DNA of 55,985 nt from Oscillospiraceae bacterium (GTDB lineage Bacteria; Bacillota; Clostridia; Oscillospirales; Acutalibacteraceae): the NCBI GenBank assembly GCA_015065845.1, contig SVPQ01000014.1, forward strand, positions 1-55,985, read 5' to 3'. Shown in pieces: positions 2,015 through 21,045 of this stretch. The notes under the pieces were generated by a model that was not told where the DNA came from, did not search any database, and was given only the letters and a program-made list of their open reading frames with translations. A program made the position numbers and the translations under genes. How positions within the stretch are numbered: position 1 is the stretch's first letter; each line of letters starts with the position of its first letter.

Positions 2015-3772
2015 TTATTTCAAATCTTTAAATGCTCTCACAAGAGTTGATGCAGTTTCTTTACCAAATGAGAAAATTTCAAGATAATGGTTACCGAAAA
2101 GTTTCTGCATAAACTTATTTGAACCAAGGAACATCATTGAAAAATCGTTATCAGGAATAATATAACCACAAGCATCATTTGTAAGACCAAAAACAGTTAA
2201 ATCTTCATACTCTAAAACTTCTTTTAAAGAGCCTTCGGGAAAATCTTCACCAGAAAATGAACTTTCTTTTTTTAGGGTACTTGAACCGCTTAAAATATCA
2301 GGTTCAATTTCGCCAGGAATAAATGCAATTTTCAGAGTATTACCTAACTCTAAAACACCTATTTCAGTAACAGATTCATATTGTTTGTTATCTGATTTTG
2401 CAACCGTATAGTTACCAACTCTGCATTTTGAAATAAGTTCAAATATAGGGTTACCCACTTTAAGCGGAACTTCTTTTGTCTTAAGACTAAGCGCAGGTTC
2501 TAATTCAATTTCTTCAATTACTTCTTCCCCTTTTGCTTCAACCCATTTTTTGTAGTTACTCTCTCTGCCTTTAAAAATAATAGACTTTGATTCATAACTT
2601 TCAGGACTTAAAAGTTCATCGTTATAAATCTCTTCGTTGGATTTTGTCATGGCAAGTGTAATTCTGCCCAACTCATTACCAACTGCTTTTGCCTGATTTT
2701 CAAATGTATAAACATCTGCATAAAGTCTTGTAGGATAAACCGCAGCAATCGGACCATTAAAGAATATAGCATTTTTACCTGCACTTTCTAAATATTCACA
2801 AAGCGAATAAACAAAGTCACCTGAAATATTCTCGCCAGTACCTTTCCCTTCTTCGCTCATTGAGTTTATATATGGATGAGCACCGAAATTCACAAGCACA
2901 GTTTCTTTTGCATTTTTATCATCAGGAACAAAACGCAATCTTAAAAGTTGACAAGAGCAGTCAAAGGGTGCTCGTCTGTCCCAGACATAACCTTTAATTC
3001 CTCGCTCTTTTAATGGTGCATCTTCACTTACAGATTTTTCTGAAGAATTACCCATATACGCTTTATAAAGTTTACCGTTCTTTTTATCGGCAACTGCTTC
3101 TTTTACTGCTTCAATAACTTTCGAGTAAAGGAATTCTAAATATTCCTCATCACAGGAATTCATAAGTTCGCCTTCGCCTTTAATGAGCACTTTGCGGTTA
3201 TTTCTGAAAACTTCTATAATTCTGCCCCATATACCCATTGTATCTATTGAACTATGTGTATGAGTAGAAGAAATATTTATTGATGCAATATTATTTTCAC
3301 TACAGAAATCAGCTAATCTCTGACGAATAATTCTTATACACCTGTTAGAAAGACCAATACAGTCAACTGCTGCAAAAACTGCTGATTCGCCAGTTGTTGT
3401 ACCAAGACAAATTGCACGAACTCTTATATCGTCAAGCACACCTGTGGGAAATCTTGCAGGAAGACGGGTAACACCGCCGATACAGTATTCCTTTGTCAAA
3501 ATATCCTCAGGGAGAATACTTTTCTGTGCGTAACCAAGAACCCATTCTGAATTCTCTGTTATTTCTGATATTAAATCTTTCTGCATTGCAGATAAAACAT
3601 CATCTTCTCCGCTATTTACAACAGGCTCAGGAAGTCCGCTTGAAAATTTGCTTATAGCTTTAACAAAATTTCTTGAGAACATATCTGCTCTTTCTTTGTT
3701 AGGCATTTTATAAAGTTTCACACCTGCACCAACTGCCGCAGCACCTAATGCTAATTTTAAAAATTTGCCCAT
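2015..3772 (-). CDS. neutral/alkaline ceramidase-like protein
   Basis: This 585-aa protein resembles the catalytic part of neutral non-lysosomal ceramidases, zinc amidases that cut N-acyl sphingosine. Supporting motifs are SSTHTHSS near residue 167 (zinc-binding histidines), VNFGAHPYIN near 295, ISGDF near 313, which takes the place of the family ISADYPG, and GLTNDACGYIIP near 545. A hydrophobic segment at residues 4-21 with an AAAVGAG core suggests membrane anchoring or export without a clear cleavage site. It follows the alpha/beta hydrolase gene with a 3-bp gap, so the two are translated together. The family includes many uncharacterised bacterial members, so ceramide as substrate is an inference. 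A weak hairpin at 1992-2011 follows the stop. Confidence 0.75.
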   Translation of the reverse strand: MGKFLKLALGAAAVGAGVKLYKMPNKERADMFSRNFVKAISKFSSGLPEPVVNSGEDDVLSAMQKDLISEITENSEWVLGYAQKSILPEDILTKEYCIGGVTRLPARFPTGVLDDIRVRAICLGTTTGESAVFAAVDCIGLSNRCIRIIRQRLADFCSENNIASINISSTHTHSSIDTMGIWGRIIEVFRNNRKVLIKGEGELMNSCDEEYLEFLYSKVIEAVKEAVADKKNGKLYKAYMGNSSEKSVSEDAPLKERGIKGYVWDRRAPFDCSCQLLRLRFVPDDKNAKETVLVNFGAHPYINSMSEEGKGTGENISGDFVYSLCEYLESAGKNAIFFNGPIAAVYPTRLYADVYTFENQAKAVGNELGRITLAMTKSNEEIYNDELLSPESYESKSIIFKGRESNYKKWVEAKGEEVIEEIELEPALSLKTKEVPLKVGNPIFELISKCRVGNYTVAKSDNKQYESVTEIGVLELGNTLKIAFIPGEIEPDILSGSSTLKKESSFSGEDFPEGSLKEVLEYEDLTVFGLTNDACGYIIPDNDFSMMFLGSNKFMQKLFGNHYLEIFSFGKETASTLVRAFKDLK

Positions 3773-14707: not shown

Positions 14708-14887
14708 AATGTAAAATTTAAAATTTCGGAACGCTTCGCGTTGATTATATAAAGAATAAAAAATGCATCTTATTATTTATAGTTGGTGCTACAAATAACT
14801 TTAAATGATAAGGTGCACTTTCTTTTATAATATTATAATTATGTCGCAGACCCTTAATTTTCAATTTTCAACTTTCAATTTTACATT
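14708..14887. repeat. MITE-like element with 11-bp terminal inverted repeats
   Basis: AATGTAAAATT at 14708-14718 is exactly inverted at 14877-14887, bounding 180 bp with no coding capacity. Inside, TGCATCTTATTATTTA (14764-14779) pairs with 14802-14817 with only two mismatches, both of which would be G-U pairs in RNA. No target duplication is obvious at the edges. The structure suggests a small non-autonomous element. Confidence 0.55.
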
Positions 14888-14930
14888 ATAAATAAAAACA
14901 CTCCGACTATGCGGAGTGTTTTTATTTATA
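14887..14930. terminator. bidirectional terminator between histidine phosphatase and rnpB
   Basis: A 19-bp perfect stem containing ACACTCCG/CGGAGTGT flanked by A and T runs on both sides, with a 6-nt loop. It can end transcripts arriving from either direction and abuts the 3' end of RNase P RNA. Confidence 0.9.
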
Positions 14931-15551
14931 AGTCGGTAAAACTGTAAGCCGGGTTTTGTCGTTTAAGGCAATCATCTATCTAGACCTTGCGTTGCCACAA
15001 GGTTCAAGCCACCCTTCGGGGTTGCGAATAAATTCGCTGTCCGGCAAACTCCCCATTCGGTGTTGCATCAAGTAGGGTTTACATGGCAGTATTGTCTCCA
15101 ATACCCCGGTGAGCTCTTACCTCGCCTTTCCACCCTTACCGTATAGAGTGAGTGTGTTCGAACCAAATATGCCTTAAATGTCCGATTTCACGCACCTTTT
15201 GTATTTTTTTGTCTTGATATACGCCAGTATAACTTCGTCAAAGAAAATCCAAAATGCACGCAAACTCGAACATTTCAGGTTCTGCGAAGTTTAATACTTG
15301 GCAATTTTTTCTGTAACAAGGCAAAACTCGCAGGAATACTGACGTATTTCAAGAGTTTTAACGATGTTACAGGAGAAAATGACTGTATTAAACCATATAT
15401 GATTCTAACACACTCACTCTAAACGGCGGTATATCTCTGTTGCACTTTCCCTAAGGTTACCCTCGGCGGCCGTTAGCCGTTACTCTGCCGTGTGATGCCC
15501 GGACTTTCCTCGTCTATACTAAAGTATATCCGCGACTGCCCATTTTACCGA
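14930..15551 (-). ncRNA. rnpB: RNase P RNA with large insertion in helix P12
   Basis: Read on the minus strand, the RNA shows the conserved RNase P blocks in order: GAGGAAAGTCCGGGC near 15515-15500, GTGCAACAGAGA near 15445, GGTAAGGGTGGAAAGG near 15137-15122, GGTAAGAGCTCACC near 15115, and the 3' AACCCGGCTTACAG near 14950. The 5' GTCATCGGTAAAAT and 3' TTTTACCGACTT ends pair as helix P1. Without the 278-bp segment at 15144-15421 the RNA would be about 344 nt, normal for bacterial type. The segment sits exactly at the tip of P12, between CCGTTT and ATACGG. The promoter is at 15558-15586 and the terminator at 14887-14930. The RNA cleaves 5' leaders from precursor tRNAs with protein RnpA. Confidence 0.93.
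15144..15421. mobile_element. palindromic MITE-like insertion in rnpB P12
   Basis: TAGAGTGAGTGTGTT at 15144-15158 is perfectly inverted at 15407-15421. Further inside, TCTTGATATACGCCAGTAT (15212-15230) pairs with 15336-15354 at 17 of 19 positions, and the outer flanks also remain largely self-complementary. The whole segment could fold into one long hairpin extending P12. No open frame lies in it. The same 15-nt end sequence recurs at 21017-21031. Confidence 0.7.
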
Positions 15552-15557
15552 TGACTT

Positions 15558-15586
15558 ATTATATTTAATTTTTTGAATTTAGTCAA
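15558..15586 (-). promoter_or_regulatory. promoter of rnpB
   Basis: Minus-strand TTGACT (15581-15586), a 17-nt spacer and TATAAT (15558-15563). The predicted start near 15551 matches the 5' end of helix P1. Confidence 0.85.
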
Positions 15587-20978: not shown

Positions 20979-21031
20979 TTTGCTTAGTGTGAATGTACAA
21001 AATCGATTTTGATTAAAACACACTCACTCTA
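20979..21031. repeat. short hairpin in hpf leader sharing the rnpB insertion end
   Basis: AACACACTCACTCTA at 21017-21031 is identical to the right end of the insertion in rnpB. Together with AGTGTG near 20984 and the 14-bp palindrome CAAAATCGATTTTG at 20998-21011, it makes a hairpin of about 50 bp. It may be a deleted copy of the same element. Confidence 0.5.
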
Positions 21032-21045
21032 TAGTTTCTATAACA

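Follow-up and report, generated by a model that had tools for sequence, protein, structure and literature searches.

On its minus strand, the window (the whole stretch of 55,985 nucleotides analysed) carries an rnpB gene, which belongs to the class A RNase P RNAs according to a covariance-model match across the whole RF00010 model (15551-14929 minus, model positions 1-367, E 4e-81). The alignment contained one large insertion, which fell in helix P12. The earlier note had described a palindromic segment flanked by RNase P RNA blocks, and the full-model match, with its insertion in P12, agrees with this description. The features of the locus were as follows.

14886..14931, minus strand: likely terminator at the rnpB 3' end, a 20-bp perfect hairpin with a T-rich 3' arm (inverted repeat I2)
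14929..15551, minus strand: rnpB, class A RNase P RNA, 623 nt with the insert (RF00010, 252.4 bits)
15137..15143, minus strand: original P12 stem, 3' side (TACGGTA), from the Rfam alignment and relatives' P12
15144..15145, no strand: TA, target-site duplication on the right (RNase P RNA sense), from the flanks of copies and the empty site in relatives
15146..15158, plus strand: terminal inverted repeat, 13 bp perfect (15 with TA), from the sequence
15146..15419, minus strand: palindromic MITE-like mobile element, 274 bp, at the P12 tip, from dispersed copies in genome and genus
15407..15419, minus strand: terminal inverted repeat, 13 bp perfect (15 with TA), from the sequence
15420..15421, no strand: TA, target-site duplication on the left (RNase P RNA sense), from the flanks of copies and the empty site in relatives
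15422..15429, minus strand: original P12 stem, 5' side (CCGCCGTT), from the Rfam alignment and relatives' P12 such as CCGCCGTTTTTACGG
15558..15586, minus strand: promoter-like site TTGACT-17-TATAAT upstream of rnpB, 11/12 consensus matches

The promoter-like site is suggestive at most, because the scan found three sites against a mean of 2.0 in shuffles. The hairpin at 14886-14931 was absent from the output of the terminator scan of the window.

The segment 15144-15421 consists of TA, 274 bp and TA. Its two ends are perfect inverse copies over 15 bp (TAGAGTGAGTGTGTT), as had been noticed earlier, or over 13 bp without the flanking TA, and an imperfect inverted repeat of 39 nt (85% complementary) extends these perfect ends. 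Self-complementarity, also claimed before, was pronounced: the element together with the P12 base (15130-15435) folded at -111.6 kcal/mol, versus -64.6 ± 4.6 kcal/mol for 100 dinucleotide shuffles (z -10.2). On the plus strand, one frame of the window element is open over the full length, and with the TA duplication the insertion adds 276 bp, a multiple of three. Any frame was open in 36 of 5000 mononucleotide shuffles of the window element. Among the 22 full copies described below, one frame was open in just eight and the remaining five frames in none; a coding element was rejected, as the open frame is not conserved. Elsewhere in the window, positions 21008-21033 resemble an element end (88% over 26 bases) and may be a remnant of an end-only copy.

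A dispersed palindromic family in the genome and the genus

Copies of the insert were found dispersed at unrelated sites. Its own genome contains four further full copies (91-93% identical) and related partial ones, which makes five full copies with that in rnpB. Within the genus, an element match (E 0.001) was obtained in 16 of the 22 genomes, and full or near-full copies were present in 11 of the 22, the window genome included. The matches in G010 and G020 were confined to an inner part that is common to a second family.

Ends and flanks were inspected in 22 full copies, of which those in G000:C43 and G018:C31 occupy one common site and are non-independent; two more copies, truncated by contig ends, were excluded. 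TA was observed on both sides in 12 of the 22 and on the left only in five more, with other left flanks in five. A TA target-site duplication is recognisable in the family in this way, with TA missing on one or both sides in 10 of the 22 copies. The terminal inverted repeats (columns 1-26 and 249-274) were paired in 97.6% of cells across the 22 copies, and the element, of only 274 bp, contains no internal transposase gene. No long open frame hosts any of the 22 full copies, the sole spanning frame (L076, 115 codons) being hardly longer than the element. Shorter forms were also observed, of about 157 bp (G014:C5 and G007:C27) and of about 44 bp, the latter reaching scarcely beyond the end repeats.

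Among the named genomes of the GTDB collection, 23 stretches contained one exact 20-base form of the end, all from Clostridia or Oscillospiraceae bacterium; where the samples were named, they were of deer, buffalo, sheep, goat or yak gut. The exact end pattern gave no stretch in IMG/VR, and no match to plasmids or phages was obtained (blastn, E 0.01). When 19 of the 23 other full or near-full loci and the G002 contig were searched against Rfam, no copy lay inside another structured RNA family; one copy among the 19 loci was located 28 bp from a T-box. ARAGORN found no tRNA genes within copies at 12 loci.

The second palindromic family, of about 273 bp (L006, L007, L008; about 1443-1715), has a 165-bp core in common with the window element (73-80%) and different ends. 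At L006 and L007, both end types hold TCGAACC, which resembles the reverse complement of a tRNA T-arm and acceptor stem; ARAGORN found no tRNA at these tRNA-like ends.

Duplication of TA is typical of IS630-type transposases, and the TA flanks of the element presumably point to an IS630/mariner-like enzyme. An IS630-type partner was nevertheless rejected, as the DDE_3 transposase domain (PF13358) was detected in none of the 22 genus genomes versus 3 of 14 control genomes. Moreover, no pairs of element ends lay 0.9-3 kb apart in the 22 draft genomes. The autonomous partners of MITEs are often missing. As no partner with the same ends was found, the element is named MITE-like only; its partner may have been lost, may lie in unassembled DNA, or may be of another type.

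Empty P12 sites and folding of the enlarged RNA

The RF00010 model matched in 18 of the 22 genus genomes, that of the window included, and P12 was short in all 17 of the other members where it could be read. The closest rnpB, in G021 (94.5% identical over 559 columns), has the P12 sequence CCGCCGTTTTTTACGG, and that of G018 (93.5% identical over 557 columns) has CCGCCGTTTTTACGG; the P12 of the window, minus the insert and one TA, reads CCGCCGTTTATACGG. The TA duplication in the window is consistent with these empty sites. P12 was short too in one further genome, G539, which bears an element end. The window junction was found in no stretch of the named genomes, a set that possibly does not include the window's own genome.

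The earlier note had named, as the finding that would overturn its reading, an identical insertion at this position throughout the relatives. That outcome was not observed: P12 was short in 17 of the 17 other genus members with a readable helix. The note's proposal of a non-autonomous mobile element in P12 is upheld by these empty sites, by the dispersed copies and their TA flanks, and by the lack of a frame open in all copies.

Compared with the family consensus, the rnpB copy differed at 10 positions, four of which are private (element positions 14, 18, 21 and 41). Three of the changes break pairs (two of them private) and none compensates. The nearest of the 21 other full copies was in G001 (96.0% identical), and copies in the same genome were at most 93.1% identical. 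The predicted fold of the rnpB copy (-97.6 kcal/mol) was the second weakest of the 22 (range -94.5 to -125.1 kcal/mol). Nothing shows that the arm has been selected for a function, because the rnpB copy has pair-breaking and no compensating changes; selection for the arm was rejected on these grounds and on the weakness of its fold. The rnpB insert is a recent insertion rather than an ancestral extension of P12.

A DNA search with the G018 gene, aimed at genomes with no RF00010 match, covered 20 genomes, and seven matched. In G011 the rnpB gene was divided between two contigs that break at P12 and immediately behind it; in G009 a contig ended where P12 starts. These breaks (L150 and L156 in G011, L153 in G009) may hide further inserts or strain variation. 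Partial rnpB genes were found at contig ends in G163, G208 and G220, which belong to other genera, and G003 and G004 gave no rnpB match in this search or in a permissive model search (matches in 3 of 26 genomes). No insert was seen in any of these genomes.

The insert was predicted to fold by itself. Minimum-energy folding, a rough guide, gave 105 pairs within the insert and none between insert and core in the 623-nt RNA. The earlier note had suggested comparing folds of the gene in the presence and absence of the insert. Of the 105 pairs that the empty RNA is predicted to form, 98 survived when the insert was present. On this prediction, the catalytic and tRNA-binding core of the window RNA should fold as before.

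The palindrome was also compared across the 22 full copies, with a structure derived from the consensus of these same copies and with shuffles that keep their relatedness. Twelve pairs were changed on both sides, and paired changes occupied 43 cells versus 13.0 ± 3.1 in 500 shuffles; the count fell to 0-5 when the partners were slid. This suggests that the element family as such remains a hairpin at the DNA or RNA level.

A second insertion in helix P3

Another family member, of 198 bp, was found inside rnpB of G002 (L118, G002:C19, 2879-3427), in this case in helix P3, with P12 empty. The element (GAGTGGGTGTGC...GCACACTCACTC, -88.4 kcal/mol) is flanked by TA on the right and AA on the left. 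The gene runs from P1 to P3, through the element, and then into P3 again and the remaining gene; a search of G002 with the G018 gene returned the same two pieces (2879-2909 and 3112-3424). P3 was short in the window, as it was in every other genus member matched by the P3 pattern (10 in number), and gene lengths were normal in the rest. The covariance model had reported the G002 gene as a match of normal length (344 nt), with the real 5' end lying about 200 nt upstream, a warning that surveys by covariance model can misplace such genes.

In the rnpB tree, which has some open forks outside the two clades concerned, G002 and the window species fell in separate clades (each 100/100). As each clade holds members with empty sites, the P3 and P12 insertions are independent.

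A hand tally from end matches gave 55 element loci; tRNA-like matches were dropped, and halves at contig ends and the common site of G000 and G018 were perhaps counted twice. On the assumption that, in each genome, only non-coding DNA of about 250 kb can harbour an insertion that survives, the chance of at least one further rnpB hit was p about 0.07, and that of at least two among the 55 was p about 0.003. A second rnpB insertion by chance is thus only mildly surprising. Targeting of rnpB by the element, for which the case is weak and post hoc under the same survival assumption, was rejected.

Interpretation, alternatives and other long RNase P RNAs

We consider it very probable that a MITE-like element inserted at a TA in the P12 loop and was tolerated as a self-folding arm, that the result is neutral or slightly costly, and that the element was moved in trans. 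The course of events begins with a non-autonomous, palindromic, MITE-like element of a family found in this genus inserting at TA in the P12 loop of rnpB and duplicating this TA, as shown by the dispersed copies, the TA flanks and the empty sites. The moving enzyme would act in trans. The insertion would be tolerated because P12 is a peripheral stem of variable length and because the element forms a self-contained arm, long, branched and mostly double-stranded. The core would fold as before, judging from folding, and would presumably function in the cell. The outcome would be an RNase P RNA of about 620 nt, probably neutral or slightly costly to the cell, whose arm may be trimmed or nicked by RNase III-type enzymes. 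The independent insertion in P3 of the sister species G002 would fit selection that spares only insertions at hairpin tips. A mobile element has been caught inside the catalytic RNA of an essential enzyme, nearly doubling its length. With the empty site found in sister species and an independent hit in another hairpin, the tolerance of an essential ribozyme to large insertions becomes directly testable.

RUP and Correia elements duplicate TA. STRR repeats were reportedly described by Vioque in 1997 within the RNase P RNA of heterocyst-forming cyanobacteria, and they are said to sit in P12. Like the window element, they are repetitive sequence inside an RNase P RNA gene, but they are short tandem repeats by name, with no transposable palindrome bearing terminal repeats. 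According to the available excerpt of PMC2229807, which reports Ogata et al. 2002, Rickettsia palindromic elements (RPE) occur in tmRNA and RNase P RNA genes. They resemble the window insert in being a dispersed bacterial palindrome within an RNase P (M1) RNA gene, where they are possibly neutral, but they are 105-146 bp long, belong to Rickettsia and lie in frame in protein genes as well, whereas the window element is 274 bp long, belongs to Clostridia, has TA flanks and has its 22 full copies outside long open frames. The type of event, a repeat inside RNase P RNA, is therefore already known from RPE and STRR. Correia/NEMIS, RUP and ERIC elements, as excerpted in the same source, are likewise short, with terminal inverted repeats and a long RNA stem-loop; the window element differs from them in its sequence family, in having two copies in RNase P RNA hairpins, and in that no partner transposase was found. 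In the passages returned from open-access PMC full texts, no report described this element family, a clostridial RNase P RNA containing a MITE, or a single family occupying two hairpins of RNase P RNA.

Regarding the sites themselves, an alignment of plastid and related RNAs omits several helices that lack sequence conservation, P3 and P12 among them (PMC4264200, in excerpt), and the designers of an engineered ribozyme picked P12 and P3 as sites for added elements (PMC9740620, in excerpt). P12 is not functionless in every class, since a P12 loop mutation in Geobacillus RNase P RNA misplaces P10/P12 and prevents the substrate-binding part from folding properly (PMC13254310, in the part available).

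One alternative is another fate of the same insertion. A long RNA duplex is a likely substrate of RNase III, and about 105 base pairs are predicted in the insert. Less probably than under the main reading, an RNase III-type cut might remove most of it as an excised intervening sequence and leave an RNase P RNA in two pieces, joined through P12 and the contacts of the core, much like fragmented 23S rRNA. The RNA stem-loops of NEMIS, a Neisseria MITE, have been proposed as RNase III targets (PMC2229807, excerpt), and 23S rRNA intervening sequences occupy the same kind of place (PMC4990558, excerpt). The one described there is a 428-nt selfish element in helix 45 of the precursor 23S rRNA and, similarly, is selfish DNA lodged in a helix of a catalytic RNA that the cell needs; the present case differs in its host, RNase P RNA, and in having no conserved open frame. 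Engineered RNase P with separate S- and C-domain strands and with elements at P12 and P3 formed active units, but this split ribozyme was not cut in P12 (PMC9740620, as far as excerpted). The wider proposal, that in these Clostridia small palindromic transposons repeatedly find a safe harbour in the P12 and P3 tips, and that RNase III cuts the duplex so that some living bacteria depend on an RNase P ribozyme split naturally by a transposon, is in our judgement unlikely. The possible birth of a fragmented ribozyme is made directly testable by this locus.

It is very unlikely that the window rnpB is disabled and that its task falls to a different RNase P RNA or to a protein-only enzyme. The assembly (82% complete, 51 contigs) could miss a second rnpB copy, but it gave a single RF00010 match, as did each of the other 89 matching genomes (99 searched), and the core of the window gene aligns across the full model. 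An assembly artefact, in which a repeat was misjoined into rnpB, is highly improbable. The family is repetitive, the assembly is a draft, and the contigs of some relatives end within copies; against this, the flanks are consecutive halves of one gene with TA on either side, the private bases at element positions 14, 18, 21 and 41 adjoin the rnpB flank, with the nearest other copy at 96.0%, and the same kind of event occurred independently in a second genome, G002. A reading in which P12 was extended in an ancestor or throughout the lineage, and in which the extension co-evolves with RNase P and plays a part in it, can practically be dismissed: P12 does vary in length and long arms elsewhere in the order match only rnpB, but the empty sites in G021 and G018 refute it for the window insert, the helix was short wherever it was read in the rest of the genus (17 of 17), the insert sequence recurs at unrelated sites, and the rnpB copy carries pair-breaking changes.

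These other long arms were found in G066 and G089 (L064, L066) and in G029 (L067), and match only rnpB in their own genomes; the arm of G066 is made of repeated units and that of G029 is palindromic, of about 90 nt. A different situation was observed in G026, from the same family and another genus (L065, G026:C90:7562-8196), whose RNase P RNA measures 635 nt. Two copies of an 87-nt palindromic unit (88% over 75 columns) lie in its P12. When the genome was searched with a 396-base query across this P12 stretch, 78 matches were obtained, counting the query's own locus, and the 87-nt unit was present in 10 of the 10 loci fetched. The P12 repeat of G026 is a dispersed palindrome unrelated to the window element, and, with the independent P3 insertion in G002, adds to the interest of the locus. 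Of 150 genomes sampled from the family, 138 matched, and a length above 480 nt was found in the window and G026 only, in a survey that undercounts, as the case of G002 illustrates. Among the best matches listed by an order-wide search, RNase P RNAs of 483-495 nt were observed in three species of one genus of the order (G139:C31:8215-8709, G106:C68:10638-11132 and G165:C131:26561-27043).
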